Source: a virus. Taken from it: a stretch of 20,030 nt of DNA. The notes under the pieces were generated by a model that did not search any database, was not told where the DNA came from, and saw only the letters and a list, made by a program, of their open reading frames with translations. Of this stretch, positions 1 to 19,536 are shown piece by piece. The stretch spans positions 1 to 20,030 of the IMG/VR virus record IMGVR_UViG_3300037070_004965; one strand, given 5' to 3'. The number at the start of each line of letters is the position of its first letter. Position 1 is the stretch's first letter. The position numbers and the translations under genes were made by a program.

Positions 1-1704
1 ATTCAGCGCCCACGGGACGTGATGCACCCACAACGAGCAATTTCCTGGGCCAAGAGGGGCAGGAGGCGTACCGGTCGTGAATTCAAACCACCCGATCCAC
101 AGCTGCTTACCGATGATGGGCACACCCAAGGGGCCTTCTTCACCAGCAGCCGCACCCCCTCCACCGCCGCCCCCAGCACCTGGAGCCACCGGAGCAATAT
201 TCTTTGTGCCTGTGCCTGCCGTAGGACCGACAAGGAACCCGGTCACGTCCAGGGTGGCTTCACTACCCCGTTCCAACTGTCGCGTGAAATCTTCCACGTA
301 CAGTTGCGTGCCATCGGTAAACTGGAGGATGTCTCCGTACTCGATGCGTGGGTCATCCACAATCGTGGTCGACCATTTATTGGCAGACCGAGCCTGATAG
401 ATCAACTCCCGAACGGCGACGGCCTTCGCGTGCTCCTCATTGACGATGAAATCGGACTCGATATCTACGACGTTATCGACCCAGAGCGGCACCGAACTAT
501 CGAACGCTTCGCTGGTGTTGCGCGCATGCACCCAATCAAACGGCGTGCCCCAGATCTCATATTTTCCAGTGCCCACCATGATCATCAGGCCCATCAACCC
601 GATTTGCCAGAAGGCTTCTTTGATACGACCAACAGGAACCGTTACACCCGTGCCAGGAACAGTATCTGGGACGTAATGCGCGGCGTGCCACCCCGCAATC
701 ATCGAAATGACGCCCACCGTCTGCTTGTGATTGTCGAACGTCAGCCGTCCCTGATTCTCTGACTGCTGTTTGTAATCTTCATCCACCAAGTTGAACGGCA
801 ACCATGAGGGCTGACACCGAGGGTTTCCCACAAAATACGTGTTCTCGGCTCGCTGCGTCTGATCATCCGAGAAATAGAACGTGTCTTTCCAGTAGGGCAG
901 CCACCATCCGAGCGTGATGACGCGCTCCGTCAGTTTCTTCTGTTGCAACGTGTGCTTCTTCAGAGTGGGATTCAACCACTGCACGCGCACACGGGACACA
1001 GGCGACCGCTGCCGCTGGCCCCCAATCTTGATCACCCGGTCATCCGTCAATCTGATATCCGAGGAACGCCCCTGCAAACTCCGATCAGCCGCCCGGAGAC
1101 GCCCGATACCATCAATGAACGGGGTCCACCCCAATGGCTGGAAGATCGCGGAGATCATGTCCCACGCGTTCATGTCTGCCATCTGCGTGTTGCTGTGGGC
1201 AGTGGTCATCGCACTCGCGGGGAACACAATTTCATCACCACGGAGACCAGCATCCCGCGCCACACGCATAGCGATATACGTGAAATCGGTCAACTGCGGG
1301 AACAACGCCGTGACCCGCTTGCTCTTGCGCCAGAGGTCTTGGGAGTCCCGGCTCTTTGCACTCAATTGCACGGACCGGGTGCCGCGCTGCAGCGTGAACG
1401 AACTGAGATTGTCGATAATCCCAATCCAAATGGGTTTCCACTCGTCCTTCTGCCACAGCTGAATCTCCAACAGCTGGTTGGGCGCGGGCTGGGCGGGTCC
1501 AAACAGCTCCCGATTGAAGCTCAGCGTCACACTGGCATCGAAGGCGGTCTGCGTGGCCTGCGTGACATAGGGCGACAAATCCACCGAGTCATCAGACCCT
1601 GGGTCCAGACCGTTCCGTATTTCATGAAACGCGGCCGTCGGGTGCAGGATGATCCGCACATCCTTCTTGCTGTCCCGACTCGTCGCCCGCCACCGCAAAT
1701 CCAT
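1..1704 (-). CDS. Tail hub / baseplate hub-like protein, 3' end missing
   Basis: This frame starts with ATG at 1704 and stays open for 568 codons to the window edge, with no stop seen, so the C-terminus is missing. The ATG lies one base after the stop of the preceding gene, with GGAG ten bases upstream. The first ~100 residues are beta-rich (LSPYVTQATQTAFDASVTL), followed by a segment fitting a gp27/late-control-D-like hub fold (NAWDMISAIFQPLGW near residue 185, then RVIKIGGQRQRSPVSRVRVQW). A run of seven glycines near residues 510-517 forms a flexible linker, after which a new domain begins (GKQLWIGWFEFTTGT) and is cut off. Position after the tape measure and Dit-like genes matches a siphophage tail hub (Tal). 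The hub role is inferred from order and general sequence character. The last domain could be an adhesin or hydrolase and is not identified. Confidence 0.7.
   Translation of the reverse strand, partial: MDLRWRATSRDSKKDVRIILHPTAAFHEIRNGLDPGSDDSVDLSPYVTQATQTAFDASVTLSFNRELFGPAQPAPNQLLEIQLWQKDEWKPIWIGIIDNLSSFTLQRGTRSVQLSAKSRDSQDLWRKSKRVTALFPQLTDFTYIAMRVARDAGLRGDEIVFPASAMTTAHSNTQMADMNAWDMISAIFQPLGWTPFIDGIGRLRAADRSLQGRSSDIRLTDDRVIKIGGQRQRSPVSRVRVQWLNPTLKKHTLQQKKLTERVITLGWWLPYWKDTFYFSDDQTQRAENTYFVGNPRCQPSWLPFNLVDEDYKQQSENQGRLTFDNHKQTVGVISMIAGWHAAHYVPDTVPGTGVTVPVGRIKEAFWQIGLMGLMIMVGTGKYEIWGTPFDWVHARNTSEAFDSSVPLWVDNVVDIESDFIVNEEHAKAVAVRELIYQARSANKWSTTIVDDPRIEYGDILQFTDGTQLYVEDFTRQLERGSEATLDVTGFLVGPTAGTGTKNIAPVAPGAGGGGGGGAAAGEEGPLGVPIIGKQLWIGWFEFTTGTPPAPLGPGNCSLWVHHVPWALN
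1357..1370 (+). repeat. 14-bp motif copy 1 (TGCACTCAATTGCA)
   Basis: Exact match to TGCAMTCAATTGCA, inside the tail hub gene, where the coding strand encodes VQLSA. Followed by CGG. Confidence 0.8.
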
Positions 1705-1705
1705 T

Positions 1706-3103
1706 TCAGAGCCGCTCCACCAGCTTCAGGACAAACGTGACCGGGTTGGTCACCCAGCCGATGGGCTCACCGTCCTCGTCTTTGTAATTCACCACGTCAT
1801 CGAAGACAATCTGACTGCCTCCCATCGACAGCCCCACGGGCAGGACATTGAACCCCAGCCCTGAAATGTAGTTCGGGAACCACTGGACATATCCCACGTC
1901 GGGATCAACGGGTGTGGTCCAGATGGCAAGCAACATGCGAAACTGGGTAATCGGCATGGCCAACCCGCCCAACGCCTTCCATCGCTCTTCCACCACCACA
2001 TCCCTCAAGTTGCCTGCCCAGAGCACGTTGGCAGCACTGGTCAAGGTACGTGACGACGACCACACGGGGGCGATGATGGCGTCGGCATCAATGTTCACCC
2101 ACTCATCTGGTTTCACTTCGTAGTCAAACGGCCCAAGCGTGGGGTGGATGATGCGGCCATAGCCGCTCTCGTCTGGGAACGCAGGCAAGACCTCAATCTC
2201 AAGGTCTACTTCTTCTTCTGCTGCTGCGGCGACCGGGAAGCTCGCTGAGGAAGTCAGTGTGCGACCGCCCATCCCGGTCGTGCCACTGCCCCCGTCACTA
2301 CCACCATCACCCGTGCCTGGAACAGTGGCTCCCGCCCCCAACTGCGTACGAGGAGCCGTAGCTACGTCGATGTCCACATACGCCGAGTTGGACTCCGCCT
2401 GTGTCGACGCCCATGCGAACCGCACAGTCGTGCCACTGAGCACGACCGCCGCGATGCCAAAGGCGTCTCCACCGACTGGCTGGTAGCCTTCAGTCGAGTT
2501 GAACGGGTGGAGCACCGTGCCGTGGGCATCTGACCAGTAGCAAATCCACCACTCCCCGCCCACCTGAAGGGCGTGGGGCTGAAAGATGCCTCCACTCAAG
2601 ACCATGCAATTGGGCAGGCCCGCCGTCTTCAGGACATTGCCTTCCTGCCAGACAGCCTGATTTGGACCAACTACATGGACTTCCAAGGCTGGGCCAGACG
2701 ACAGGGACGTATCGCCTCCGCCTGGGGCGCGGAGCACCAATCCCTGTCCCTGATAGCTCGCCTTGTAGGCCAGCGTCCCGTCCGCACCCATGCCGAGCAA
2801 TCCGGCATCAGGGAGATTTACCCCTGTGGACGTGAACAGCCCGAAACCAGACAGCCACCCGGCCCAGTGGCCGCCACCACTACCGTACAGGACGTTGGCT
2901 CCGCGTGGAGCGGCCTGTGTGGTGCCTCCCCCGACGTTATATAGAGCAACATACCAGTTTCCACCCGCATTGCGGTGGAACACCACGGTGTCCTGATCGT
3001 ACCAACTGGCTGCGCCACCAGGACTGAACTGGACGTTATTGACGAACGCACCGACGCCACCCACACCGTGGGCACGGTCCCCCGCAGCATTCAGGTATGG
3101 CAT
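1706..3103 (-). CDS. Tail tip protein: beta-rich N-terminal region fused to a Dit-like C-terminal domain
   Basis: A 465-residue protein starting at ATG 3103 behind AGAGGAC. Residues ~1-255 are rich in Gly, Trp and short beta-strand patterns (NWYVALYNVGG, HWAGWLSGFG, EWWICYWSD), like a beta-propeller or sugar-binding module. A Gly/Ser/Thr linker spans ~259-280. Residues ~295-465 form a separate domain (FDYEVKPDEWVNIDADAI, WSSSRTLTSAANVLWAGNLRD, WFPNYISGLGFNVLP) that resembles tail-tip domains encoded just before phage hub genes, so I infer a Dit-like/distal tail role. The stop is one base from the hub gene, consistent with coupled translation. A carbohydrate-binding N-terminus on a distal tail protein would suit host recognition. 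No catalytic motif is visible. The structural role is fairly safe; the domain names are inference. Confidence 0.6.
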   Translation of the reverse strand: MPYLNAAGDRAHGVGGVGAFVNNVQFSPGGAASWYDQDTVVFHRNAGGNWYVALYNVGGGTTQAAPRGANVLYGSGGGHWAGWLSGFGLFTSTGVNLPDAGLLGMGADGTLAYKASYQGQGLVLRAPGGGDTSLSSGPALEVHVVGPNQAVWQEGNVLKTAGLPNCMVLSGGIFQPHALQVGGEWWICYWSDAHGTVLHPFNSTEGYQPVGGDAFGIAAVVLSGTTVRFAWASTQAESNSAYVDIDVATAPRTQLGAGATVPGTGDGGSDGGSGTTGMGGRTLTSSASFPVAAAAEEEVDLEIEVLPAFPDESGYGRIIHPTLGPFDYEVKPDEWVNIDADAIIAPVWSSSRTLTSAANVLWAGNLRDVVVEERWKALGGLAMPITQFRMLLAIWTTPVDPDVGYVQWFPNYISGLGFNVLPVGLSMGGSQIVFDDVVNYKDEDGEPIGWVTNPVTFVLKLVERL

Positions 3104-3112
3104 GGTCGTCCT

Positions 3113-4915
3113 CTACGCCGGATACTTCCACTTCGCAAGGTTCGCCGCACTGATGCCACCGTGGGCCAGACCCCATCCAATGCCACCGGAGCCTGAAATA
3201 ATGTCGTAAATTTCAGCCATCGTGCCATCGTCCCGTTTGAAATTGATGGCATCGACAGCGTGGCCGTTGTACTGGTTCTGGCCGGGATTCTTATCCACAT
3301 GCCCGAACCGGGCATCCACATCGTGCATCGCCGTGACGGCCGCCTCAGTGTAGGCTCCTCGACCATCGGCGGCTTGCTGATCGTAGGCATCACCTCGTGT
3401 CATCTGCCAATTACCAGCATTCAGGACACGCTCCAAGATGTAGGTCATATTCGGAGCCTGTGCCGAGGCTCCCGTTCCAGGGTCATGACCCTCACTCGGG
3501 GGTGCGGGCGTGCCGGGAGGCCAATCTCCGCCCGGTCCAGGCCCACCGCCATGGCCAGACGATCCGCCACCAGTCGCCCCACCCGTCACCGGAATATCAG
3601 CGGGGTCTGGCCTATACGACCATGCTTCTACAGCAATGTTGATCAGCCCGGTATGCGGAGGGTCTGCATCTGGCGACCCCGTATTCGCCCAATCAAATGG
3701 CGGAGAAGCTGAGAACGACTCGTGCCCCTCACACGCCACCATGATGCGGGTGTTCCCATGGTTGTCAGAGATCGGAATGCCGATCTGTGATCCGGAGCCT
3801 GTGACCGTGGCGTCGACCACATAACCGCCGACTCCATCATTCAAGTCCCCGACACACTGCACCAGAAACGGTACGGCTCGACGCTGACGCGGAGCCAACA
3901 GTGGGATGGGCACCGTCACTCTGACCGCTTCTGGCACCATCCGGTACCCACGAATGCGTGTATCACTGGCTCCATTGATATCAGGCACCTTTTCAATCAC
4001 AAGGAGCCGACGAAACACCGGATCCCACGTAATCTCGATATCGCTAGTATTCCAATACTCTCTGGCTTCTACCGGTCTTGGGAGCTTCGCCACTCCCAGC
4101 ACTTCGTTTCGGATGTAATCAAACAGAATTATCTGTCTATCCATCAGCAGGATGTACACCCGAGACGCATCCTCTAGACAAATGCGATCCACAATGTCAG
4201 GCATACGGACGCTGTACTTCCACTGCCCTGTACTCAACGTATAGATATGAATGGCATCGTCTATAAAAGAATTCAGAAAGGTGTCAGTCTGAAGATCAAC
4301 GGCAAAGGCCCCAAATCCGAAAGTACGAACAGGTCCATACTCGCCACCGTGATCACTGAAATGGCTGGCTGTCCACCCCTCTTCCACATGCCACCCACTG
4401 ACAACGCCATCTTCCCTATCTTCTTCAGATAACTCCGGTTCTTCCCCCAAAAATGCTGTCGCCGTGGTGCCTAAATGAAGTTTCAGAATCTCGTCCTGAT
4501 AATAATGCCGAGAATACAAATCCCCCTGGCGACCCATTGACACGCCATTCATGGCAAAAAGCGCACCCAAATTCGACTGCGTTGGGATGCGATCCTCCAT
4601 CTTTCCCGTGACCGCATTGAAGCGCCAATAGGCAAATCCCCAACTTGGCCATGCCTTCTGATTCATCATCCCAAAGACATAGATACTCGTGGGACTCGTG
4701 GGCAATTGGCCCTGCCCCGGAGGCTGCGGAACATGCTGAGGACCAGGAGGGGCCGAAGGCGACACGATGATGCCATCTAACAGGGCGAGTTGTTCATCAT
4801 ACGGTTCAGGAATAGTGTCGCTGTTATAGAAATCGTCCCACAACGGTACATGCGGGTTCGGATCGGCGTTGTTGTAGTAATACAACGGGTCACTTTTGTA
4901 CACTTCCATCAGCAT
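3113..4915 (-). CDS. Modular tail tip/adhesin protein with propeller-like body and distinct C-terminal domain
   Basis: A 600-residue protein. ATG at 4915 is used here; ATG at 4909, which overlaps the upstream stop as TGATG, is an equally plausible start. A Pro-rich stretch lies near residues 50-75 (PPGPQHVPQPPGQGQLPTSP). Residues ~75-340 show repeated strand/turn patterns with aromatic residues (SIYVFGMMNQKAWPSWGFAYW, AIHIYTLSTGQWKYSVR, RVYILLMDRQIILFDYIRN) typical of a beta-propeller. A Gly/Pro linker covers ~442-478. The last ~120 residues are a compact alpha/beta domain containing QYNGHAVDAINFK and TMAEIYDIISGSGG. The N-terminal half is encoded by visibly more AT-rich DNA than the flanking genes. 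Likely virion-associated host-contact protein by position and architecture; enzymatic activity of the C-terminal domain is possible but not shown. Confidence 0.55.
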   Translation of the reverse strand: MLMEVYKSDPLYYYNNADPNPHVPLWDDFYNSDTIPEPYDEQLALLDGIIVSPSAPPGPQHVPQPPGQGQLPTSPTSIYVFGMMNQKAWPSWGFAYWRFNAVTGKMEDRIPTQSNLGALFAMNGVSMGRQGDLYSRHYYQDEILKLHLGTTATAFLGEEPELSEEDREDGVVSGWHVEEGWTASHFSDHGGEYGPVRTFGFGAFAVDLQTDTFLNSFIDDAIHIYTLSTGQWKYSVRMPDIVDRICLEDASRVYILLMDRQIILFDYIRNEVLGVAKLPRPVEAREYWNTSDIEITWDPVFRRLLVIEKVPDINGASDTRIRGYRMVPEAVRVTVPIPLLAPRQRRAVPFLVQCVGDLNDGVGGYVVDATVTGSGSQIGIPISDNHGNTRIMVACEGHESFSASPPFDWANTGSPDADPPHTGLINIAVEAWSYRPDPADIPVTGGATGGGSSGHGGGPGPGGDWPPGTPAPPSEGHDPGTGASAQAPNMTYILERVLNAGNWQMTRGDAYDQQAADGRGAYTEAAVTAMHDVDARFGHVDKNPGQNQYNGHAVDAINFKRDDGTMAEIYDIISGSGGIGWGLAHGGISAANLAKWKYPA

Positions 4916-5946: not shown

Positions 5947-5953
5947 CACTGCC

Positions 5954-6815: not shown

Positions 6816-9800
6816 CTATCGTCTCCCTTGCTGACGCACAACTTCATGCTCCAGCCACTCGCGCATGGTCATGTTCAGCGTGTCGGGGTGCATGGTCACC
6901 ACCATGTTGCCTGGACCACCCCCTCCTGGCTGGACAGAGGAGGCTCCGCCATCCGTCGCCACCATGCCACCACTAGCGTAGCGTCTCGGGATGATGGACC
7001 CCGGTGCAATTGAGTGCACCAGTCCACCTGTGCGGTAGGGCAGGATGCGTCCGGTCCTGATGCCTTCCAACAATGGCAGGAACTGAGCCGTCTTGGCAGC
7101 AGGCATGATGTGCTCACCAGCAGACACTCTAGCGATCACCGAGTCACTCGTCCCTGTGCCTGGACCCGTGATCATGCCACCTTCCGCCAGAGTCGGAGTG
7201 GCGACGTTACCAAACAGCGCATTCCCCCCGCCCCCGCCACCACCACTGGTGCCCATAAGCGAATCCATGAAGCCAAAACTAAGCTTGGAGAACAGCTTCT
7301 GCGTTAAAGCCTTGGCAAAAATACTCGTAATTTCGTCAGCAATGCTCTTGGCGAAACTCACCCAGGCTTTTCCCGCCTCTTCGAACCCATGCGTCGTCTT
7401 CACCAGTGCGTCAGCAAACCCATCCGTGAAATTCCTCTTCAGCGACGCACCGTACGTCTCCATCTCGGCCGTGGCCGTCTGAATCTTCCCATTCAGATTT
7501 ACGACCTGCACACTCAACTGGGCCGTCTCAGACTGCAACCCTTCGATAGCGGCTCGACGCTTATCAATAGTTGCGGGATCGTCAGCGGCTTTCCCAGCCT
7601 TCGCCTGCTCTTCATTGACACGCAGGATCGTGTTCTGGATTTCCAGATTCTTCGCAGCCAGTTCGACTTCCAGAATCGCCAATTCCTTACGGTCGATATC
7701 AACCTGTTTCATCAACAGTCGATTCCGCAACCGCATGGCTTCAAGGTCAGTAATGGCCCCTACTTTGGCATCAGCATCGACGCGCCCTTTTTCCACGTCC
7801 AGGATCGCCTGCTCAATAGTCAATGCCTGACGCCGGGCAACGTTAGCTTCCAAGGCCCGCTCCAGCGCAAGCTGACGGAAATTGGCAGCATTCTGTTCAA
7901 GTCTCAGCTGAGTATCCGCGTCAACGGCTTCGTCTCCGCCCGCGACACCCTTCATCGCTTCCTTGCGAACAAGAGCCTGCTGGTTGATCACCGCAATGGC
8001 TTCAGCCTCACTCCCGTAGGCCGCTGCCGTTTGCAGTTCCAACTCCAGAATCTGACGCGAAATACCCCGACGTTCGGCATCCTGCTGCCGCAAAAGGTCT
8101 GCTTGCGCTTTGGCGAACGCGCTGGGCGTCTTCTCATCACCCTGCAGTTCTTTCAGTCGCCTCTGAGCCGCCTCCAACTGAGAACGCAATGCCTGTCTCT
8201 CTGGATCCGTCTTGGCCAACCCGGCTGCTTTTTGTTGCTCAAGCGACCGGAGATTGTTGATGGCGATCTGCTGTTCCAGACCTGCTTCTTCACGCATCCG
8301 CACCAATCGTGCTTCGAAATAGGCATCCAGCGTCATCAACCCCTGATCGTACTGATCCTTGTCAATACTGGCCTGCGTCTCATTGCGAGACTTGGTCATC
8401 GTCAAGAGCGACTGGAGATGGTCCGCGTACCGACTCTGTTCTTCTTTGAGTCGGGCGGCACGTTCAGCGTCCAATGGCGCGAACAGGGCTCGCTCACCAG
8501 CAGCCGCATTCAAACGAGCCAACGCCTGAAGGCGATTCAACTCAGCAAACTTCTGCGGATCAGCCCCAGCGGCGGCATACCGCTTCCGGATTTCTCCGAC
8601 CTGCGCATCGAACTGTTTCAACGCCTCGGCATTGGTCACAGTCGGGACGACAATTTTTAAACTTTCCTGGATCTGGGCAACGGACCGAGGCAGATCGCCA
8701 AGCGAATCAAGGGCTTCCTTAATACGACCAGTCGCATCAGCAGGCTTCTTCGAAATTTCATCGAAATCAGCCACGAATTTCGAGACAGTGCTGAGCGTCT
8801 TCTGGAACGCAACCGGAAGTGCCTTGTTCTCATCAGTGAAGGTAACTTTCTCTCCGAGTTCAGCCGACGCCGCTATCATCTCTTCGCCGTGTTTCTTTAT
8901 GCGTTGCACCTCTGCACGCTGAGCAGCTTCTGCCTTTTCACGTCGAAACCCTTCTGGATCTTCTATGGCGAATCGTGCTTCGGCGGCTGCCACTGCCTCC
9001 TTAGCGGCCTTCATATCCGCTCTGGCTACAGCATATTTCGCTTCCGTTGCATCTTTATCAGCCTGGATACCACCCTTTCTGGCTGTCGCATAATCGCGCT
9101 CTGCCTGAGACAATGCATCTTGGGCTTCCATCTGCTGCCGCCCTGCCGCTCGCAGAGCCGTATTCTTGGACAATCGAGCATTGATGATCTTTTCTTCTTC
9201 AGCCGACGCTCGATCTAGGCTCAGCATGCGTCGAATGATGTTATCTTCGTCCTTCTTCGTGAAGAACTCAATTGTGCGGCCTTCTTCAATCGCTCGCCAG
9301 AGACCACGCGTCGCTTTGGCTGTCTCTACGAGCGCGAAGCCCATCGCAATAATCGCCGCTGTCAAAGCGACCGTATTCAAGGCGGCCATCGCCGCACCCC
9401 AGGCTACCGTCGCGACGGTTGCTCCTTGTGTGGCCGCCGTAACGGCAAGAATTTGTGTCCTCAAGCCAGCCAACAGATTCATCGCGCCGCCGATAAGATC
9501 GTAAATCTTCCAAGCAATTCTCCAAGCGGCATACGCCTTAACGACAAACAGGATCGTTTCTGCATGCTTGAGCAGAAATGTCGCAGCTACATTCAAGGCT
9601 CGTGCGATGGTACCCACCGCTGATGCCAAATCCTCAGCAATCGTAGTGGTCTCACCCATGACCTCAGCGGTAATCTGGGCCTTGGCCAAAAAATTCGTAA
9701 ACTCCGACACCAGTACGCTGTACGCCGGGAGCAGGAAATTTCCAACAGAGGTGCTGAGTTGGTCTGTATACCTCTTCAGAGACTGCGTTTGCTTCCCGAC

Positions 9801-11364: not shown

Positions 11365-11901
11365 TTATTTCAACCAAGACCAGTTATACCCGTGCTTAAT
11401 CGCCTGAATCGTGTTCGGAGACACCCCAAATTCTTTGGCGAGCGTTCTGGTGTCTTCCGTCTGCGAGCGGGTCTTGATAGCTCGCGCCTGATCCTCAGTC
11501 AACTTTGCTTTGTGGTGCTTCGCTCCCCGGTTCGACAAGCCATTGAGCACCTTGTCCCCCATGTTCTCAGCGTGGGTGCCGTATCTCAGGTTCTCCACGC
11601 GATCATCGGTCGTCACATCGTTCTTATGAAGCACCTGTAAGCCATTTGCTGGTCCCAGAAACGCGGCGGCAACGAGATGGGCGACAAGACAGGTCTTTGT
11701 TGTTCCCTGCCTACACAAGACCACATTCCATCTATTACCGCTCGCCTTTCCACGTTTCAACAACCTACCCGGACTCACCCTGAGATAGTCAACGCCTGTT
11801 CTTACAACAGGCACTTCTCTGGGCAACGATTTGACATTACCCTGATCCGAAACCTCGTACAGCCCTTCATACCCGACTACTGGCTTCCAGAGTTCTAGCA
11901 T
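11365..11901 (-). CDS. HNH homing endonuclease with NUMOD4 and C-terminal helix-turn-helix
   Basis: A 178-residue protein. I choose ATG 11901 (MLELWKPVVGYEG) because AAGGAGG lies seven bases upstream; an ATG seven codons earlier would overlap that site. Residues 2-26 match NUMOD4 (LWKPVVGYEGLYEVSDQGNV). Residues 71-115 match the HNH_3 type: His75 in LVAHLVAAAFLG, His92 and Asn94 in VLHKNDVTTDD, Asn104 in VENLRYG, then THAEN. Residues ~150-172 form a helix-turn-helix (TLAKEFGVSPNTIQAIKHG) that would bind DNA. Such free-standing enzymes cut phage genomes lacking the insertion and spread by repair. It sits between the tail tube and tail chaperone genes and interrupts neither, with 55-base and 39-base gaps on either side. 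No intron or intein is visible. Confidence 0.92.
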   Translation of the reverse strand: MLELWKPVVGYEGLYEVSDQGNVKSLPREVPVVRTGVDYLRVSPGRLLKRGKASGNRWNVVLCRQGTTKTCLVAHLVAAAFLGPANGLQVLHKNDVTTDDRVENLRYGTHAENMGDKVLNGLSNRGAKHHKAKLTEDQARAIKTRSQTEDTRTLAKEFGVSPNTIQAIKHGYNWSWLK

Positions 11902-11908
11902 GGGCGGC

Positions 11909-11915
11909 CCTCCTT
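11909..11915 (-). promoter_or_regulatory. Shine-Dalgarno AAGGAGG deciding the HNH gene start
   Basis: AAGGAGG is seven bases upstream of ATG 11901, favouring that start over the ATG seven codons earlier. Confidence 0.75.
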
Positions 11916-11956
11916 GGACCACCCATACTATTACACGGGAGTAAAAAACACAAGGT

Positions 11957-12784
11957 CTAAAACGCGTTGTCTGGTGCCGCCTTGAGCTTTTTGATTGAGA
12001 AGTAGTTCGACCCCGACAGTCGGGTATCGTCCTTGAGCACCGACCCTTCGATCACGAACTGCCCGAACGTATCGCTGAGGAGCGCCAGTTCCTTGAGCGG
12101 GTCGTTGCTGAACCGGAACACATCCACGATGACCGGGCTGTTCTCTTCGATGGTGTTCAAACCCTCGAAGCGCAGCCAGTTGTCGGTGATCGGGCGGGTC
12201 AGCGACGAGACGAGGTACTGCTCGCCGTAGGTGTAGCTGGCGCTCAGTTCATCACCCGCTTCCACAGGCGAGGCTGGCGTGTAGGCCGCGTAATCCATCA
12301 AGATGCCGTCGTTCATCATGATAGAACCCGCCTCCGGATTCAGCTTGTAGTCCCACGGCACGGTGCCGTCCGTGTACGCGGTCAGCGACGTGCCACCCTG
12401 TCGCACGACCACCGCAGACACATCAATGTACCGGAATGCACTCACCAGCCCGGGGAAGCCCATAATCGTTTCGTTGGCTGCAGATCCAGGATGAATCAGC
12501 AGGTCATCACCTCTGGTGGCTTCCGCGAGATTCTTGGCGTTCCAGTTCTCCACCGTAATGGAGCAGGTGACGTTGATTTCGGTCTGCAGACGGGCGTCCG
12601 TCGCACGCTGACCGTCCTGCGACCCTTTGTGGTTCACCACCGTCGTGGTGATCCCCAGCTTCATGTCGGGACAGTTACCTACCGGGCGCAATCCGATGGC
12701 GTCGCCCGTGATTGGATCACGACGACCCACCATGATGACGCCCTGGCCACTGAAATACCAGTTGGCCGCATCAAAAGTTGCCAT
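11957..12784 (-). CDS. Major tail tube protein
   Basis: A 275-residue protein starting at ATG 12784 (MATFDAANWYFSGQG), with GAGGAG seven bases upstream. The frame is open further upstream, but that part is a low-complexity Thr/Arg shadow of the preceding gene's end. The sequence is an alternating beta-rich protein with GVIMVGRRDPITGD near the start, ITCSITVENWNAKNLAEA-like strands around residue 75 and EGSVLKDDTRLSGSNYFSIK at the end. These features, and the place two genes upstream of the tape measure, match siphophage tail tube subunits, which stack as hexameric rings around the tape measure. The tube call is strong; fine family assignment is not possible here. Confidence 0.82.
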   Translation of the reverse strand: MATFDAANWYFSGQGVIMVGRRDPITGDAIGLRPVGNCPDMKLGITTTVVNHKGSQDGQRATDARLQTEINVTCSITVENWNAKNLAEATRGDDLLIHPGSAANETIMGFPGLVSAFRYIDVSAVVVRQGGTSLTAYTDGTVPWDYKLNPEAGSIMMNDGILMDYAAYTPASPVEAGDELSASYTYGEQYLVSSLTRPITDNWLRFEGLNTIEENSPVIVDVFRFSNDPLKELALLSDTFGQFVIEGSVLKDDTRLSGSNYFSIKKLKAAPDNAF

Positions 12785-12791
12785 GCTCGTT

Positions 12792-12797
12792 CTCCTC
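12792..12797 (-). promoter_or_regulatory. Shine-Dalgarno GAGGAG deciding the tail tube start
   Basis: GAGGAG lies seven bases before ATG 12784 and sets the start of the tube protein downstream of the previous gene's stop. Confidence 0.7.
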
Positions 12798-12809
12798 GTC
12801 CTTTTGAAA

Positions 12810-14012
12810 CTAGCGGCCAGCGTCAGGCTTGTTGTCGCGGTCGTCGTCCCGGTCCTTGTCGTTCCGCTCGTTCTTGTCCCGGTCTCCGGCACCCTTGGAT
12901 GGCTTGATGGTCAGGTTGCTACCACGACCAGGACCACCCGGCTTGCCAGGACCACCAGGACCACGACGTCCAGCCTGTCCTTCTGGCGGAGAAGCAGGGC
13001 CAGTCCCTTCAGCATAGAACTGGAACATCATCTCGTTGCTGTCATCCCCATACCCTGTGCGTACCTTCACCGGCAGAGGCTCTGACGGTCCGGTCCACAC
13101 GGCCATGTTGACACCCGTGGTCAACTCCTGCGGAGAGACGAACGTGGTGGGCTCTTCGTAGCCATTGAACACAATCTTGGAATCGGGGCCGAAGCCAGTG
13201 CCACGCACAGTCAGCGTGAAGCTCTCGTCACCGACTTCTGCCGACTCTGGCTCCAACTCGGTGACAGACAGTTCGTACTCCACCTCAGAGCCGGATTCCT
13301 CCAGTGCCCCCAGCGCCCGGAAGAGCAACGGGTTCGTGGCTGCACCTGGAGCCTTGTCGTACCAGAGCACCAAGAGCTTCTTGGCGGCCAAACTGACACT
13401 GCTGCTGAACCCTGAACTGCCAGCCGCTGTGCCGCCCGTGAACGTCGCCCCGGAGATCGTAACGGCGTTGCCGGTCTCGGCCAGCGTATAGCTGTTGCCT
13501 GCCGTTCCTGGCTGACGGACCTTCACCGTCACGATGGTGGGCGTACCCACAGCGACACTCGCGGTCAGTGTGCTGTCGCCTGACATGATGGCCTTAGCCA
13601 ATCGGCTTGCCATCTCGTTCGGGTTGCTGCCACTGGGCGTAATGTCGATAGGCACGACGCCGGGCGGCGTGTTGTAGCTGGTGTGCACTACCACGTCTTT
13701 GAACGTGTAGGCTTTGCCGTTGACCGTCACCTTGTCCCCGTCTACCGCTGTGGTCAGACAAGTAATGGTGGCTGAGGCATTGCGGGCACCAATGGTAATC
13801 GTGTTCAACGCCACGTCCACAAGGTCGGTGAGGTTGACGACGGCCCCGATATGATCTTCTGGATCCATTCCCGTGACCGGGACCACCGTGCCAGCTGCCG
13901 CTCCGGTCACGACGGACAATCTCATGCCCTGGAGTTCGGCAATCGCCTGAGGCATGGCATCGGGAATGCCAGTCCCGCCGAACCCCAGGTTACGAACATT
14001 TACCATACTCAT
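12810..14012 (-). CDS. Virion protein with IPT/TIG-like domain and collagen-like, charged C-terminal tail
   Basis: A 400-residue protein. ATG 14012 (MSMVNVRNLGFGG) is chosen because AAAGGAG is six bases upstream; an ATG seven codons earlier would place that site inside the gene. Residues ~1-70 are a conserved-looking N-terminus. Residues ~75-195 hold a phage structural pattern (VTVNGKAYTFKDVVV, NPNEMASRLAKAI, GTAGNSYTLAETGNAVTISG). Residues ~249-332 fit an IPT/TIG Ig-like domain (FTLTVRGTGFGPDSKIVFNG, SEPLPVKVRTGYGD). The end is unusual: Gly/Pro-rich collagen-like triplets (GGPGKPGGPGRG, ~340-360), then ~30 residues dominated by Asp, Arg, Lys and Asn. It lies between the sugar-enzyme genes and the tail tube gene, so a tail or head decoration role is likely and it may be a substrate of the enzymes upstream; that link is inference. 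Confidence 0.65.
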   Translation of the reverse strand: MSMVNVRNLGFGGTGIPDAMPQAIAELQGMRLSVVTGAAAGTVVPVTGMDPEDHIGAVVNLTDLVDVALNTITIGARNASATITCLTTAVDGDKVTVNGKAYTFKDVVVHTSYNTPPGVVPIDITPSGSNPNEMASRLAKAIMSGDSTLTASVAVGTPTIVTVKVRQPGTAGNSYTLAETGNAVTISGATFTGGTAAGSSGFSSSVSLAAKKLLVLWYDKAPGAATNPLLFRALGALEESGSEVEYELSVTELEPESAEVGDESFTLTVRGTGFGPDSKIVFNGYEEPTTFVSPQELTTGVNMAVWTGPSEPLPVKVRTGYGDDSNEMMFQFYAEGTGPASPPEGQAGRRGPGGPGKPGGPGRGSNLTIKPSKGAGDRDKNERNDKDRDDDRDNKPDAGR

Positions 14013-14018
14013 AGTGTG

Positions 14019-14025
14019 CTCCTTT
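14019..14025 (-). promoter_or_regulatory. Shine-Dalgarno AAAGGAG deciding the start of the IPT/TIG-domain gene
   Basis: AAAGGAG is six bases before ATG 14012, ruling against the earlier in-frame ATG at 14033. Confidence 0.75.
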
Positions 14026-14087
14026 ACCAGCAACCGGCATGGCTAAGCGCGGCTGCAGAGATACTGTGCCAGAGGCCACAGACGATG

Positions 14088-14876
14088 TCAACGGCCATCT
14101 GCACTCAATTGCAACGGAACAATATCCCCAAAATCCCGAGACCACACGCGCAAAAGATGACTATCACTCAGCACATGACGTATCTGCCGATAACGGTCCT
14201 CTAACGACCCCTTTGGACGCGTACTTCGAGCGCGGTGATAACCATACCACCCAACATGCTGAGCCAAGGGCGTTTGTGCCCAGGCCACCTTATATCCATC
14301 CAACAGCCGGGCAATTAGTCCGTCCTGTTCATAGTCCAGCGCAGGTTTCCCCTTCGAAAAAAATCGCTCTCTAATGTAACCTTCCATGCTCCTGAAATAC
14401 GCATCGTTGCAGTGCGGCACCACCACCTGAAGCACTTCCCGTCGAAAGCACACGCCTAACGACGCATACGGACCCTGACGCGGACCTTTTTCGATGGCGA
14501 TACTGCACCCGAGCAGATGCCCATCGTGTTGCGCACGATGCCACGCAAAGAATCCCGGACTGATCACCACGTCATCTTCGATCAGAAACACATGCTGGGC
14601 TTTCGACTGGTAGGCGTCCTTGTAGGCCATCAACACGTTGAAGCTGTTACCGAGATACCTATGCGGAGCACGAAACGTCACCTCCACCGACAGCTGTGGG
14701 AATTTTTTCACCACCGCCAGGATTTCCTCGCGTGGTACGGATGGCTGGTTCACATGGGCGTCCACATACACCCAGACGCGAACGTCTGCACTTTCTGGGC
14801 ACGCAGCAAAATGCTCCAAGCACAGCCACAGCATCTCAGGTCGATCATACGTCGGGATAATTACGACATCTTGCAT
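14088..14876 (-). CDS. Glycosyltransferase, GT-A fold
   Basis: A 262-residue protein whose ATG at 14876 lies 16 bases inside the preceding methyltransferase gene. The N-terminus VVIIPTYDRPEMLWLCLEHF is the nucleotide-sugar entry strand of GT-A enzymes. Around residues 98-104 the sequence FLIEDDVVISPGFF gives an acidic EDD metal-binding motif, as in GnT-I-like and some GT2 enzymes. Later LDYEQDGLIARLL may provide the catalytic acid region. The protein would transfer a sugar from a nucleotide donor in the cytoplasm; donor and acceptor cannot be read. It is the last of five coupled glycan genes and is followed by a 75-base gap before the IPT/TIG protein. The 14-bp motif copy at 14100-14113 encodes LQLSA near its C-terminus. 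Confidence 0.8.
   Translation of the reverse strand: MQDVVIIPTYDRPEMLWLCLEHFAACPESADVRVWVYVDAHVNQPSVPREEILAVVKKFPQLSVEVTFRAPHRYLGNSFNVLMAYKDAYQSKAQHVFLIEDDVVISPGFFAWHRAQHDGHLLGCSIAIEKGPRQGPYASLGVCFRREVLQVVVPHCNDAYFRSMEGYIRERFFSKGKPALDYEQDGLIARLLDGYKVAWAQTPLAQHVGWYGYHRARSTRPKGSLEDRYRQIRHVLSDSHLLRVWSRDFGDIVPLQLSADGR
14100..14113 (+). repeat. 14-bp motif copy 4 (TGCACTCAATTGCA)
   Basis: Located near the 3' end of the last glycosyltransferase gene, just before the 75-base gap leading to the IPT/TIG-domain gene. Followed by ACGG. Confidence 0.8.
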
Positions 14877-15325
14877 AGCCGGAACCTGAGATCTTTGACT
14901 TCACGCGTCACCGAGACCTGCCGCCACCATTTATTGTAGCCTTCTCCGAAGTAATACCGTCCGAAATCTTGCCAGACCGTACCTTTGGCGTCTGGGCACC
15001 AGTATAGGAACGACTCCGGGTGGAACACCCGGTAATGTGTCGGATCACGCCAGCTATACGGGTTGTCCCATGCGGGTAGGCGCATATCGAGGGTGCCGCC
15101 CGGCGACAAGACGCGCCAGCACTCATCCAACCACGTCTGGACATCGCACTTCAGGTGTTCGAACACATCAATAGCAAGCAGGTGCGACAGCTCCCCCTCT
15201 AGCAGGGGCCACGGCATCTGGGCCAAATCAAACGCCACCTCGACATGCGGCGAGTGTTTCCATCGGTCGTGGTGAATCCAGCCCGACGTCGGATGATTAC
15301 CGCAGCCCAACTCCAGACGAGTCAT
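14861..15325 (-). CDS. Class I SAM-dependent methyltransferase
   Basis: A 154-residue protein starting at ATG 15325, sharing an ATGA overlap with the upstream methyltransferase stop. Motif I is LELGCGNHPTSGW at residues 4-16; an acidic DVFEHL follows near residue 53, and WRVLSPGGTLDMRLP near 70-84 is the usual post-core strand. This is the compact Methyltransf_11-like form often found beside glycosyltransferases. The C-terminal part is rich in aromatic residues (HYRVFHPESFLYWCPD, FGRYYFGEGYNKWW), likely substrate binding. Its substrate may be a sugar on a growing glycan, judged from neighbours only. Confidence 0.82.
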   Translation of the reverse strand: MTRLELGCGNHPTSGWIHHDRWKHSPHVEVAFDLAQMPWPLLEGELSHLLAIDVFEHLKCDVQTWLDECWRVLSPGGTLDMRLPAWDNPYSWRDPTHYRVFHPESFLYWCPDAKGTVWQDFGRYYFGEGYNKWWRQVSVTREVKDLRFRLCKMS

Positions 15326-15867
15326 AGCTTCATCACCATCGCCGCGTTACAGCCGCCATGAAGTTCAGCAATGCGCTCTACGGAGTAGGTCCACCGCCAC
15401 CGAGACAAGTTCGCCTCCCACACATGCGCCAACCAAGGATAATTCGAGTGGTTTATGTCATCCATCACCAATATTCCCCCTCGACGCACCAATGGCCATG
15501 CGTTTTGCAGATCAATCTGGGCTCCAACACCACTATGATCCCCATCCACCAACACGAGATCAAACTGCTCGCGCAGCGTCGGAATCAGCGTTTTCGAATC
15601 CCCGTCTAAGAACTGGGCTGATGTCTTGAAATACTCCAATATCTTCAGCACGACAGGCTTGGCATCTCCGTGGTCGCAGTAGGTCGGATCCCAAATGTCA
15701 CAGAGCACGATGCGAGACGGCACCCCTTCGCACAACACCGTGTTCAACGACCCTCCACCATCCACTCCAATCTCCAGATAACTATCCACTTTCTTCAGCA
15801 ACGCGCACGCGGCACGCAGTGCTTCGTGCAGGTCCATGCCCACTTCACCGGACCACTGCCAATTCAT
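15322..15867 (-). CDS. Class I SAM methyltransferase, Methyltransf_24-like
   Basis: A 181-residue protein with ATG 15867 overlapping the upstream stop as ATGA. SAM-binding motif I is YLEIGVDGGGSL (residues ~28-39). FDLVLVDGDHSG (~102-112) and GGILVMDDINH (~128-138) are the acidic motifs typical of the Methyltransf_24/cephalosporin hydroxylase-like group, some of which O-methylate sugars with a metal ion. The His and Asp residues in DGDHS and MDDINHS fit metal binding. With another methyltransferase directly downstream, the cassette could add two methyl groups to one glycan. The substrate is not determined. Confidence 0.8.
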   Translation of the reverse strand: MNWQWSGEVGMDLHEALRAACALLKKVDSYLEIGVDGGGSLNTVLCEGVPSRIVLCDIWDPTYCDHGDAKPVVLKILEYFKTSAQFLDGDSKTLIPTLREQFDLVLVDGDHSGVGAQIDLQNAWPLVRRGGILVMDDINHSNYPWLAHVWEANLSRWRWTYSVERIAELHGGCNAAMVMKL

Positions 15868-16730
15868 GACGCCCTCCCCACCAACGCGTCCAACGCCTGC
15901 TGAAACGCCTGTTGCTCTTCGTGGTATTTCGTTCGGACTCCGTCCTGCAGCTGTTGGAGGAGAGTGGGCGGCATATCTAAGACGTGTTTTACCATCTTTG
16001 CAACATCCGACGATGAGACTTTGTGCAACAATCCTTCATGGTGCCGTCGTGTTGACACACTTGGCACTAGGAGGACAGGTGACAATTCATTCATCGGTGG
16101 GGCGTCCGTCGTCACGATCACCTGCCCGACTCCCATGGACTCATGGAGCACCTGTCCATAGCCTTCATATGCGGACGGCATCAAATGGCAAAAGTGCGAA
16201 TTCATCAGGTAGATCAATTCTTTGTCGGACACACGTCGTCGCGGGAACACATGCTCCCCTACCACGGTCAGAGGCACACCCGCTTGATGGCAGCCTTCTA
16301 CTACCGCTGTCGTGTTCTTGAACTGTGACTTCCCGGCGACGTGCAGAAACTTTCGCTCTCTGGGAATCGTCGGCACATACAGATCTCTAGCGGTCCAGCC
16401 AAGATACTGACACCGATCCCCACACTTCTGCCGGAAAATGCGTTCGCAATCTCGCGTCTTGGCCAACACTTTGTGCCAAACGTGTTGCGTCCAGGCTGAG
16501 AACCACCACTCCGGATTCGGCACGGCCCACTGCACCGGAGCCGCCTGGAACACCAGCGGGTTTACCACCTCCAAGAAGATGTTGACATCCGCTTTGGGCA
16601 CCCTGGCAGGCTGATTGAACTGGACGCCCTGCACCTGATGACCACGCGCCTCCAACTCCTTCCGAAGCAATTCGTAGTCTTGCTGCAGGCCACATCCGTT
16701 CGCCAGATTGCTGACCAGATTAAAGCGCAC
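15864..16730 (-). CDS. Glycosyltransferase, GT-B fold (GT4-like)
   Basis: A 288-residue protein. I prefer GTG 16730 (VRFNLVSNLANGCGLQQDY) over ATG 16814, because the GTG gives an 11-base overlap with the previous gene and begins at the natural first strand of the fold; no good Shine-Dalgarno is seen for either. The first domain includes GLQQDYELLRKELEARGHQV. The second carries RKFLHVAGKSQFKNTTAVVE and the GT4 signature SAYEGYGQVLHESMGVGQ (~residues 183-200), with E-x7-E spacing for nucleotide-sugar binding. It is somewhat short for GT4 enzymes. Position second in the cassette suggests it extends a sugar chain. Confidence 0.8.
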   Translation of the reverse strand: MRFNLVSNLANGCGLQQDYELLRKELEARGHQVQGVQFNQPARVPKADVNIFLEVVNPLVFQAAPVQWAVPNPEWWFSAWTQHVWHKVLAKTRDCERIFRQKCGDRCQYLGWTARDLYVPTIPRERKFLHVAGKSQFKNTTAVVEGCHQAGVPLTVVGEHVFPRRRVSDKELIYLMNSHFCHLMPSAYEGYGQVLHESMGVGQVIVTTDAPPMNELSPVLLVPSVSTRRHHEGLLHKVSSSDVAKMVKHVLDMPPTLLQQLQDGVRTKYHEEQQAFQQALDALVGRAS

Positions 16731-17388
16731 AGGGAAAGGCTTTCGGCAAAGACGACTTGGCCACCGGAGTATAACTCGTGCGTGACAGGCTCTTTCGACA
16801 CGTCTGATGGTCATGCACTCGTGCCACCATCAACTGCCCGGCCGCAGCGGTCGGTACGAGTTTGTACGCTTCTCGCATGGCCTGCTGCACAAAACGGACG
16901 TCTTCACCCACCGTCAACGACCGAAAGGGATGGTGATCCCACCACTGACGCCGGTAGCACAGCGACGTGCCCAGCAAATATCGCATCGTGACTTGAGGCG
17001 TGTGCCACTGATAGCATTTGCCATCTCGCACATCATAAAACAGCATCGAGTGGTACCCCGTCACTACGCCGAACGTGCCGAGACGAGTGACCTGATCCGT
17101 CACTCTTTCCGGGGCTGACCAGTCATCCGAATCGAAATGGCAGATCACCTGTCCACTGGACTGCATCACACACGCGTTCCGCATGTCTCCGGTGGTCACC
17201 TCACCATGCACTCGGGCATAGCGAATCGTCGGATCTGGCGGAATCAGCGACTCGGTCGCATCTTCGCCATTATCCAGGACAATCAGTTCTTTATTCGGGT
17301 ACGTCTGCGATTGGTAGCTACGAATGGCGTCGGGGACGAAGGCTGCCCGATTTTTGGTCGGCAGAATGCAGGACACCAGCGGGAACAT
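16720..17388 (-). CDS. Glycosyltransferase family 2-like
   Basis: A 222-residue protein starting at ATG 17388, 12 bases after the tail-terminator-like gene; the ribosome site is weak. VSCILPTKNRAAFVPDAIRS is the GT2 donor-binding N-terminus, ELIVLDNGED follows, and CHFDSDDWSAPE at about residues 83-94 supplies the DxD metal-binding motif. LTVGEDVRFVQQAM near residue 170 fits the later catalytic ED region. It is the first gene of the five-gene glycan cassette and would be a candidate for starting the chain on a protein or other acceptor, but the acceptor is unknown. Confidence 0.85.
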   Translation of the reverse strand: MFPLVSCILPTKNRAAFVPDAIRSYQSQTYPNKELIVLDNGEDATESLIPPDPTIRYARVHGEVTTGDMRNACVMQSSGQVICHFDSDDWSAPERVTDQVTRLGTFGVVTGYHSMLFYDVRDGKCYQWHTPQVTMRYLLGTSLCYRRQWWDHHPFRSLTVGEDVRFVQQAMREAYKLVPTAAAGQLMVARVHDHQTCRKSLSRTSYTPVAKSSLPKAFPCAL

Positions 17389-17400
17389 ACAGGCTGGACA

Positions 17401-17874
17401 TCAGGGAACAGGACGTGACGGGTGCGCCAGTTGGACAGGCACACTCCATCGCTGCACCCAACATACGGTGCCTGAACGGAGCGCCGCTGGAGCTTCCACC
17501 ATGAACTTCCAGAAATGACGTGTGACCGTACTCTTCTGACCAATAAACTGGTACCGCATCGCGTCCAGATATTCAATAGCTCGCGTGCGTTTTTGTGTCG
17601 TGTTGTGAAGTTCGTCACCGCGCTCCACTAGCACCAGCCCTAGAACAATTTCACAAGATAAACCGACCTGCGCAGTGGTTCCCGTCTCCGACTGGGACCG
17701 CATGCCTTCATAGACAATGCCCACGGCCGGGTAGCTACGCACGCCCTTCAAGACATCAAGCAGATCGTTTTCATCATAGGCGACCACAACTTTGCCCGTC
17801 AGATTAACAGGCGGAGCATTCAATTTCAGCAAACGCGTGCTGGCTTCTTCTAAAATATCTACCAGCTGGCTCAT
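17401..17874 (-). CDS. Tail terminator-like / head-tail joining protein
   Basis: A 157-residue protein with ATG 17874 overlapping the upstream stop as ATGA. It begins with a helix (MSQLVDILEEASTRLLKL), then alternating strands (KVVVAYDENDLLDVLKGV, VGLSCEIVLGLVLVERGD) and a helix (KRTRAIEYLDAMRYQFIG). Size, secondary-structure pattern and place directly after a gpS-like gene fit tail terminator proteins (gpU-like), which cap the tube and join it to the head. I recognise no strict motif, so the call rests mainly on position. Confidence 0.6.
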   Translation of the reverse strand: MSQLVDILEEASTRLLKLNAPPVNLTGKVVVAYDENDLLDVLKGVRSYPAVGIVYEGMRSQSETGTTAQVGLSCEIVLGLVLVERGDELHNTTQKRTRAIEYLDAMRYQFIGQKSTVTRHFWKFMVEAPAALRSGTVCWVQRWSVPVQLAHPSRPVP

Positions 17875-18335
17875 GGCGTACCACTCTGCTTCAGTGCTTG
17901 CTGAATACGCCGGATGATCACCTTCTGCATGGCTCCCAGATCTTCTGGCGCAAAGCCCAGGAATTGACGCTGCGGGAATCCAATGCCGAACTGGTGCTTA
18001 TGAGCATACGGAAACCCCTGTGGCGACGTCACGTTGGTGCCAATCGAACGCGTCGTTCGGCTGTCAGCAAACAACTGGATACTCCGAAACAGCCGACCCG
18101 TATCAAACAGCGTTCCACCTCCACGACCACTCTTGGCCCGACGGATGGCGGCTTGGGATGGCGGCCACTTTACTCCACTCGGGTCCATCTCCATCAAAAA
18201 ACGTGTCCGCATCCGGTTATAGATGACGGCTGCGCCTTCGTCCAGGATCTTCACCGTGTCCAGAGCCTCAGTCAGGGCAGCAATGGATTTCTCCAGCCCC
18301 GTCTGTCCAGCGACCGTGACGGTCAACAGTTTCAT
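17871..18335 (-). CDS. Phage virion morphogenesis protein, gpS-like
   Basis: A 154-residue protein with ATG 18335 overlapping the previous stop as ATGA. The segment GGTLFDTGRLFRSIQ (residues ~72-87), followed by IGTNVTSPQGFPYAHKHQFG and PQRQFLGF, is the typical signature of the phage virion morphogenesis/gpS family, involved in head-tail joining or tail completion. The C-terminus ends in a short helix (MQKVIIRRIQQALKQ). Length fits the family. Neighbours on both sides are head-tail joining genes. Confidence 0.82.
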   Translation of the reverse strand: MKLLTVTVAGQTGLEKSIAALTEALDTVKILDEGAAVIYNRMRTRFLMEMDPSGVKWPPSQAAIRRAKSGRGGGTLFDTGRLFRSIQLFADSRTTRSIGTNVTSPQGFPYAHKHQFGIGFPQRQFLGFAPEDLGAMQKVIIRRIQQALKQSGTP

Positions 18336-19123: not shown

Positions 19124-19127
19124 AGTC

Positions 19128-19505
19128 TTACACCGTCACATCACCTTCGCTGGTGGTCTGCAGAATGTCTGCGATCTCGCTGTCGTCACCGATCTCGATC
19201 CGCTTGGCCGGAGGCGGCGTAACACTGAGATTCTCGACCGGTGGCAGCGCCTGAACCCATGTCTTGTCCTGCGGTTCATTCGAAGGGACGACCTTCGGAC
19301 GTTCAGGCGTGTACAACCTCCAGATAGGACGACCCGTATCCTGCTCTGACAGCAGCACCATCGCATCCTGATGGCGAAACCGATACGGCTTGCCTGCCTC
19401 GTAGGTCGTGGTGCCCCAGGTATACTTCTTGTACAGGGCCAGTTCCAACACCGCTGTGTCGGATGGCGGACGGGTCTCTACCTGTCGTTCTGTCTTCAGT
19501 GCCAT
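19128..19505 (-). CDS. Small protein of unknown function in the head-completion region
   Basis: A 125-residue protein from ATG 19505 with AAGGAG six bases upstream. The central part ELALYKKYTWGTTTYEAGKP and YRFRHQDAMVLLSEQDTGRP suggests a small beta domain; RPIWRLYTPERPKV follows. The C-terminus is Pro-rich then acidic (EIGDDSEIADILQTTSEGD). I do not recognise a family. It is the first gene after the terminator at 19536-19558 and may head the transcript for head-tail joining and tail genes. Confidence 0.6.
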   Translation of the reverse strand: MALKTERQVETRPPSDTAVLELALYKKYTWGTTTYEAGKPYRFRHQDAMVLLSEQDTGRPIWRLYTPERPKVVPSNEPQDKTWVQALPPVENLSVTPPPAKRIEIGDDSEIADILQTTSEGDVTV

Positions 19506-19522
19506 ACATCACTCCTTGATGG

Positions 19523-19536
19523 TGCAATCAATTGCA
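19523..19536 (+). repeat. 14-bp motif copy 5 (TGCAATCAATTGCA)
   Basis: The only non-coding copy. It touches the end of the terminator and sits just upstream of the Shine-Dalgarno of the 19128-19505 gene, an operator-like position. Confidence 0.8.

Follow-up and report, generated by a model that had tools for sequence, protein, structure and literature searches.

An evenly spaced array of 14-bp dyad sites in the genomes of large tailed phages and a candidate phage-encoded binding protein

Introduction

The virus record IMGVR_UViG_3300037070_004965 (positions 1 to 20,030; the whole of this 20,030-base stretch is referred to here as the window) represents a structural region of a tailed phage, and five exact copies of a 14-bp near-palindrome are dispersed along it. 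These copies raise the question of what the element is, how far it extends beyond the window and what, if anything, binds to it. The initial annotation of the window regarded the copies as dispersed sites under selection at the level of DNA and suggested as their roles repressor sites resembling the stoperators of phage L5, the operator of a phage regulator, or the recognition site of a modification or nuclease system. In the present work, we have completed sequence and structural comparisons of the window and a range of related phages, which establish that the five copies are part of a genome-wide, evenly spaced array of the 14-bp dyad TGCAA-N4-TTGCA. We also describe a phage-encoded core protein, family 135, which, with a probability that we place at roughly 0.55, would bind these dyads and occupy the phage genome over its whole length. 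A description of the array was not found in the open-access literature searched, which included searches with five 14-base forms of the motif and was mostly covered among the matches listed, and the full sequence records of the phages SIO-2 and SM1 carry no annotated feature for it.

A conserved dyad in the window and its relatives

All five of the exact copies reported earlier are present at the positions and on the strands assigned to them (Table 1), and the count of eight CAATTG sites, five of them inside the motif, is likewise borne out. When up to 3 mismatches are allowed, the window contains 15 matches (palindromic double counts included), whereas 100 dinucleotide shuffles gave 3.3 on average and never more than 9. 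A search with the major tail protein retrieved 11 related contigs (the longest 119.7 kb), all of which carry the motif (≤2 mismatches; up to 56 strand-counted matches per contig against 0 or 1 for the reversed control), and the predicted excess thus extends beyond the window. An iterated profile seeded with the motif collected 245 sites from 12 sequences, with the consensus TGCAAT-CA-ATTGCA. The element first described as a near-palindrome is hence, in its family form, a perfect 6+6 dyad, the position written as M in the original motif being a single tolerated change. The bases flanking the 245 sites hold at most about 0.2 bits per position. A chance origin of the sites is ruled out by Markov and permuted-profile controls, and their unconserved flanks rule out that they are part of a promoter or another fixed module. 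A CGG, said to follow four of the five copies, is immediately adjacent in two, one base further on in two and missing in one; the comparison of copies and the low information of the flanks place it outside the motif.

Counts of position and conservation were based on 207 sites (cut-off 14 bits) in eight non-redundant contigs of the window's group, the near-duplicates G003 (of G004), G005 and G007 (of G006), and G008 (of G011) being left out. Of these sites, 141 are located in coding sequence, 60 are intergenic (12 expected) and 6 lie at edges, and their orientation is even (106 same, 101 opposite). The central dinucleotide of the 4-bp centre is CA in 174 sites, CG in 22, TA in 8 and CC in 3. 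Between genomes with a nucleotide identity of about 70%, 363 of 469 pairwise comparisons show a site at the corresponding position, whereas 60 permuted profiles give 48 of 379; for the five sites of the window, a near-consensus palindrome is found in 25 of 26 comparisons. Codons inside sites that specify the same amino acid are identical in 488 of 663 cases, where 363 would be expected from those amino acids elsewhere, the pairs not being independent. The proposal that selection acts on the DNA rather than on the protein is thus borne out by the conservation of both synonymous codons and positions. It had also been stated that the motif occurs in coding sequence in two frames and once outside it. 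Four copies are indeed coding and that at 19523 intergenic; all four coding copies, however, share one codon phase, and it is their two orientations that result in two peptides being read.

Changes in the two arms of the dyad do not compensate each other. In the outer arm pair, both bases match the consensus in 109 sites, one is changed in 94 and both are changed in 4, against 11.7 expected, a count from which the 14-bit cut-off may have removed some double changes. Recognition is therefore most likely of the duplex DNA, and the sites look like duplex-DNA elements rather than RNA hairpins. A role of the palindrome at the RNA level, in the hairpin of a terminator or processing site, could be imagined from the 5-bp stem and 4-base loop open to TGCAA/TTGCA and from some SM1 sites that adjoin stop codons; it is ruled out by the non-compensatory arm changes and equal orientations, together with the mostly coding location of the sites.

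Even spacing of the sites over whole genomes

The most distinctive property of the array is the regularity of its spacing. Over 30 site-bearing contigs the mean spacing is 1.2–3.4 kb (about 1.6–3.4 kb without the divergent fragment G029), and in 27 of them the sites are more regularly spaced than under random placement (P < 0.05; coefficient of variation 0.40–0.73 in those 27). Within the window's group, 199 spacings have a mean of 3.0 kb and a coefficient of variation of 0.51, with P ≤ 0.00005 against random placement for the four large contigs, 0.003–0.024 for three smaller ones, and 0.20, which does not exclude it, for G009. When 1054 spacings from 26 contigs are pooled (G029 and contigs shorter than 60 kb left out), both extremes are depleted: 2.3% exceed 2.5 times the mean, against 8.2% for random placement, and 10.2% are shorter than a quarter of the mean, against 22.1%. 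The longest gap is shorter than random (P < 0.05) in 21 of these 26 contigs. We infer that whole-genome occupancy fits such evenly spaced, mostly coding sites better than the control of promoters does. The suggested recognition site for a modification or nuclease system would not by itself account for the even spacing, and a restriction-modification target is not supported for a degenerate 14-bp dyad so arranged.

Distribution of the array among phages

A protein resembling the major tail protein was detected in 204 records of the "phages" collection, with 27–40% identity among the matches listed. In six large phages related through their tails, 14–40 sites (≤1 mismatch) were found against 2–9 in the control, whereas the Mu-like phage DMS3, which shares tail proteins but not the other core proteins searched, has 1 site against 2 in the control. 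The characteristic form of the site is TGCAA-RCGY-TTGCA in SM1 and TGCAAT-YR-ATTGCA, often with a TA centre and one altered base, in SIO-2. A search with RecA yielded 30 loci; of 21 records examined, 18 were taken whole or nearly so (G022 and G023 to base 100,000; the others being G027, G028 and G030), and 19 of the 21 hold the exact TGCAA-N4-TTGCA in up to 52 copies, against 0–1 for reversed-pattern controls. An independent search for dyads placed the same palindrome, in whole or in part, at the top in 16 of 18 contigs of 47–62% GC content, the exceptions being G022 and G029.

Symmetric profiles were applied to 30 contigs, comprising metagenome records and phages of Vibrio, Pseudomonas, and Stenotrophomonas, with the seed changed to NGCAANNNNTTGCN for G015, G018, and G022 and to NGAAATNNATTTCN for G029; phage BHU-17 enters the site counts only. 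Each contig has 8–60 sites, and 22 of the 30 have more than 30; the remainder (8–30 sites) include four fragments shorter than 60 kb. The centre of the dyad differs between lineages, viz. CA/TG in most, TA in the Vibrio phages and G020, CG in SM1, G031, and G032, and AA/TT or AT in G021, G023, and G025, and the half-site itself is altered in G022 and G029.

Protein 135 as the predicted binder of the array

A block of replication, recombination and packaging genes recurs in the site-bearing isolates but not in DMS3, and two of its core proteins, 122 and 135, resemble site-specific DNA-binding proteins. Protein 135 (exemplified by L039:17463-18251 of contig G006) is present in 29 of 30 site-bearing contigs and absent from DMS3; the contig without it, G010, is a 68 kb fragment that also lacks RecA and its neighbours. 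Over 25 contigs (G026 and those without 122 left out), distances between 135 proteins correlate with distances between motifs at 0.77 (partial correlation 0.36), the highest value among ten core proteins. No Pfam family matches 135, and searches of PDB sequences with 135, 123, and 120 gave nothing useful. Over residues of about 40–165, a structural model of 135 aligns (VIA-align) with the Spo0J-parS complex (Z 9.9, root mean square deviation (rmsd) 2.9, 111 aligned residues), ParB (Z 8.8, rmsd 3.0, 108 aligned), the Noc-NBS complex (Z 8.5, rmsd 3.3, 111 aligned), and KorB (Z 6.8, rmsd 3.8, 106 aligned). From its sequence, the C-terminal tail reads like a ribbon-helix-helix. Homologues of 135 in G021, G022, G023, and W08–W10 occupy longer frames of about 400–475 amino acids with an N-terminal extension.

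A forward test was made in phages selected solely for encoding a distant homologue of 135. Exact sites number 17 in Rhizobium phage RHph_TM16, 47 in Rhizobium phage L338C and 29 in Rhodobacter phage RcDurkin, against 0 in the control; these phages are three of the 11 Rhizobium and Rhodobacter records among 49 matches to 135. This result supports a role for 135 but does not prove it, as other core proteins may also be common to the three phages. With a predicted fold resembling the DNA-binding domain of Spo0J, Noc, and KorB, protein 135 is the best candidate for the binder.

We propose that two TGCAA half-sites around a 4-bp centre, held as an array over contigs of up to 120 kb, would be bound by a phage-encoded, putatively dimeric 135, the middle domain of which (Spo0J/ParB-, Noc-, and KorB-like) would read the sites. 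Its occupancy may mark, organize, partition or silence the phage genome, as Noc does on the chromosome or KorB on RK2, and in phagemid-forming relatives plasmid-like maintenance is a possible purpose. A search for tyrosine and serine integrases, the controls of which gave a signal in 14 and 10 of 14 genomes, found none in any of the 22 contigs searched. DLP3 is described as forming stable lysogens and DLP5 as isolated in the form of a phagemid (PMC7326821), and the 135 protein of G016 is 100% identical to that of DLP5. Segregation in the manner of a plasmid, silencing or organization would be in keeping with a ParB/Noc/KorB-like binder and an array over the whole genome. More tentatively, and as a proposal that we consider doubtful, the even spacing may itself be the function: 135 would spread or bridge from loading sites such that few stretches of more than several kb were left bare, forming a virus-encoded identity coat or nucleoid over the whole genome. 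With such a coat, the virus could tell its own DNA from that of the host, and in the phagemid state the coat could be inherited as a distributed centromere.

Several observations weigh against an evenly spaced array bound by 135. Its co-occurrence with the sites is equalled by RecA, its neighbour 123, and 119, 120, 121, 131, and 133 (29 contigs each), and the AAA ATPase 103 is present in 30 of 30. The mean predicted local distance difference test (pLDDT) score of the 135 model is 79; its Z values fall in a range where helical folds may match by chance, Raf1 scoring as high (Z 9.2) as the ParB-type proteins, and Foldseek gave no match at E ≤ 0.001 (KorB, E 2.6). The ParB_N domain was not found in 21 set-A7 members of 135, a scan that used long homologues trimmed close to the start of the domain and did not take in the N-terminal parts of the homologues in TM16, L338C, RcDurkin, and SM1; as no ParB_N is recognized in 135, sliding as a clamp is unsupported. 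Spacing is not significantly regular in G020, G029, and sm030, the longest gap is not significantly below random in G010, G014, G021 (10.8 kb), G022, and sm030, and P values are not to be multiplied across genomes whose relatives are not independent (G016 and Summit are close, as are SIO-2 and PP24). Of the 141 coding sites in the window's group, 107 are in the same codon phase, perhaps the cheapest phase, the other phases reading a cysteine codon. Finally, the MerR-type core protein 122 is a rival binder, considered below.

A separate protein with a ParB_N domain is present in 13 of 22 whole contigs and, in G021–G023, is clearly apart from 135. The domain was not detected in G018, in the four Vibrio isolates included, or in any of the four large contigs belonging to the window's group. 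Its presence in only 13 of 22 contigs rules out such a protein as the universal binder. SM1 has an annotated ParB-like gene; SIO-2, SM1, and BHU-17 stand outside this 22-contig search.

Alternative explanations

Among the rival explanations, we first consider a repressor or stoperator system, in which the array would serve to silence the phage genome in plasmid-like lysogeny, as the L5 repressor or KorB would, a possibility that we regard as open to considerable doubt. The lysogeny of DLP3, the phagemid state of DLP5 with the identity of its 135 to that of G016, and the lack of a detected integrase are consistent with it. Bound sites could also block transcription everywhere, since nearly all genes lie on one strand (139 of 141 in G001, 133 of 133 in G002, 173 of 175 in G006, 148 of 151 in G011, and all 22 called in the window, on its minus strand), and sites are in excess between genes, both in the window's group and in SM1 (18 of 34 intergenic) and SIO-2 (7 of 26). 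Against silencing stand the even orientation of the sites, their mostly coding location, structural genes included, and their unconserved flanks, whereas the L5 sites are asymmetric and oriented (PMC5712189). Further, at least one relative of SM1, UF_RH6, is described as lytic, and for a similar array the authors of the Corndog study judged a transcriptional role unlikely (PMC4351075).

Binding of the sites by core protein 122, a member of the MerR superfamily with a winged helix that would anchor or organize the phage DNA, is in our judgment unlikely. This protein (L039:11060-11506 in G006) is encoded between the helicase and RecA genes, and a MerR-type winged helix is recognized in it: MerR_1 was found in all 19 homologues (E up to 0.1), the model has a pLDDT of 90, a profile match to RacA was obtained at E 8.7e-4, and the RacA-DNA complex (TM-score by target 0.67–0.74) and GlnR-DNA are among its structural neighbours. 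RacA mediates a tether between DNA and membrane (PMC6593407). Protein 122 was, however, not found in the array-bearing G021, G022, G023, and RcDurkin; its distances correlate less with motif distances (0.68; partial 0.21); its helix-turn-helix differs strongly between the Vibrio phages and the window's group despite the same half-site; and Foldseek gave no match at E ≤ 0.001 (best 8.5e-3).

It is quite improbable that the sites are recombination or repair signals, i.e., Chi-like stop or loading sites for the phage RecA, exonuclease, helicase, and Holliday-junction resolvases. The recombination block belongs to the core of the contigs with sites, both 122 and 135 are encoded within it, and an even spacing of about 2–3 kb would suit a processive enzyme. 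Signals of the Chi type are asymmetric, whereas the sites of the array are palindromic and resemble the sites of dimers. A binder encoded by the host also seems less likely, since phages with unrelated hosts have this half-site in common.

The initial annotation was right in its general reading of the copies as dispersed protein-binding sites and is partly supported in its interpretation; a binder of the Spo0J/Noc/KorB type was not among its proposals.

Other features of the window and related contigs

The sites of the window, the possible weaker ones and the gene that served as query are listed in Table 1. The weak match within the open reading frame (ORF) at 3113–4915 is possibly a further site of the array, and another match at 19052 is probably due to chance.

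Table 1. Positions of array sites, possible sites and the query gene in the window.
Feature	Position	Strand	Match and location	Aligned relatives
Site 1, TGCACTCAATTGCA	1357–1370	+	Exact match; within a 568-amino-acid minus-strand ORF running off the left end	Near-consensus palindrome in 5 of 6; G009 copy broken
Possible weak site, TGCCATCAATTTCA	3238–3251	−	16.9 bits, family profile; within ORF 3113–4915	No relative aligned
Site 2	7005–7018	−	Exact match; close to the 3′ end of the tape measure gene 6816–10664	Near-consensus palindrome in 7 of 7
Site 3, perfect consensus, TGCAATCAATTGCA	11014–11027	+	Exact match; within the pre-tape-measure gene 10876–11325 (Pfam PF23789)	Near-consensus palindrome in 7 of 7
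Site 4	14100–14113	+	Exact match; final codons of the glycosyltransferase-like gene 14088–14876	Palindrome in 5 of 5; G011 copy displaced 3 bases
Weak, perhaps decayed site, AGCATTCAATTTCA	17815–17828	+	12.1 bits; within gene 17401–17874	TGCATTCAATTGCA in G010 and G011, better matches than the window
Site 5, perfect consensus	19523–19536	+	Exact match; intergenic, between 19128–19505 and 19574–20029	TGCACTTGATTGCA in G010, the sole relative aligned
Major tail protein gene	11957–12892	−	phrog_807, E 2.4e-52; query for relatives, not part of the array	

The genes of the window include those for the tape measure, major tail, pre-tape-measure and neck proteins, an HNH endonuclease, and a run of glycosyltransferases and methyltransferases. 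The HNH endonuclease gene (11365–11922, minus strand), possibly encoding a homing endonuclease, lies between the major tail and pre-tape-measure genes. The run of glycosyltransferase- and methyltransferase-like genes (14088–16814, minus strand) lies inside the head-tail block; a comparable gene set between the portal and protease genes is described in the Corndog paper (PMC4351075). Ahead of the tape measure gene, the minus-strand ORFs 10664–11002 and 10876–11325 overlap and may represent the programmed frameshift of a tail chaperone. The window also contains four copies of CGTAGCTAC (0.06 expected), the over-representation of which among 9-mers equals that of TCAATTGCA from the motif. Other over-represented words are ATTTGTCAA and CTTGACAAA in G006 (L035–L040), which are promoter-like, and ACCCTGTAG, ACCCTGACG, and ACCCTGATC in SIO-2 (L061, L062). 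Contig G006 further encodes a phage protein with a PEP-CTERM motif (L039:19260-19964), a pyruvate-phosphate-dikinase-like gene and a gene with a RapZ C-terminal domain. Megablast of the window against named phages gave no match, a contig search with the ORF 12810–14033 found no relative, and the search for relatives with the tape measure protein led to one locus.

Comparison with known systems

RacA binds dispersed palindromes and possesses both a polar anchor and a long coiled coil; protein 122 shares its MerR-type winged helix but has in their place a pair of N-terminal helices with many basic residues. The site of Noc is a short palindrome, read by a ParB-type helix-turn-helix and scattered over the Bacillus chromosome, and Noc carries a CTPase N-domain and a membrane helix. 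Protein 135, in contrast, has no recognized ParB_N and a tail resembling a ribbon-helix-helix, and the array described here is denser and evenly spaced. A further comparison is provided by KorB of RK2, which binds its specific sites globally on a mobile element, its operators lying both close to promoters and at a distance from them (PMC11790492). The 135 model aligns with the ParB-type DNA-binding domain of KorB; the KorB operators, however, serve target promoters, and KorB binds cytidine triphosphate and slides.

The stoperators of the temperate phage L5, about 24 dispersed sites conserved among relatives, have a 13-bp asymmetric sequence, one orientation and a mainly intergenic location (PMC5712189). 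The sites of the array have a palindromic profile, even orientation and a mostly coding location (although about half of those in SM1 are intergenic), and stoperators of the L5 type are not supported by these features.

The nearest published case found is the 17-bp dyad of Corndog, a mycobacteriophage of cluster O, for which no function is known. In the accessible text, 34 dispersed dyads are located in and between genes with no meaningful orientation, their positions are mostly shared by the relatives of Corndog, and an integrase is lacking (PMC4351075); an analysis of even spacing and a named binder were not found in that text. The present array likewise consists of more than 30 dyads in 22 of 30 contigs, in and between genes. 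The Corndog dyad, as described there, differs in its 7+3+7 form, its sequence and its host group and is confined to a single cluster comprising five close phages. The present array, by contrast, is found in phages that infect very different hosts: a palindrome at near-even spacing is common to phages of Vibrio, Pseudomonas, and Stenotrophomonas and to metagenome phages, and in Rhizobium and Rhodobacter phages its copies number in the dozens. It points to a shared and so far unrecognized way in which large phages may organize, mark, silence or segregate their DNA. The core protein 135 thereby gains a testable role, the array provides a simple sequence signature by which such phages could be found, and it may also be relevant to the repeats of Corndog, as yet unexplained, and to the integrase-free lysogeny of the DLP-like phages.

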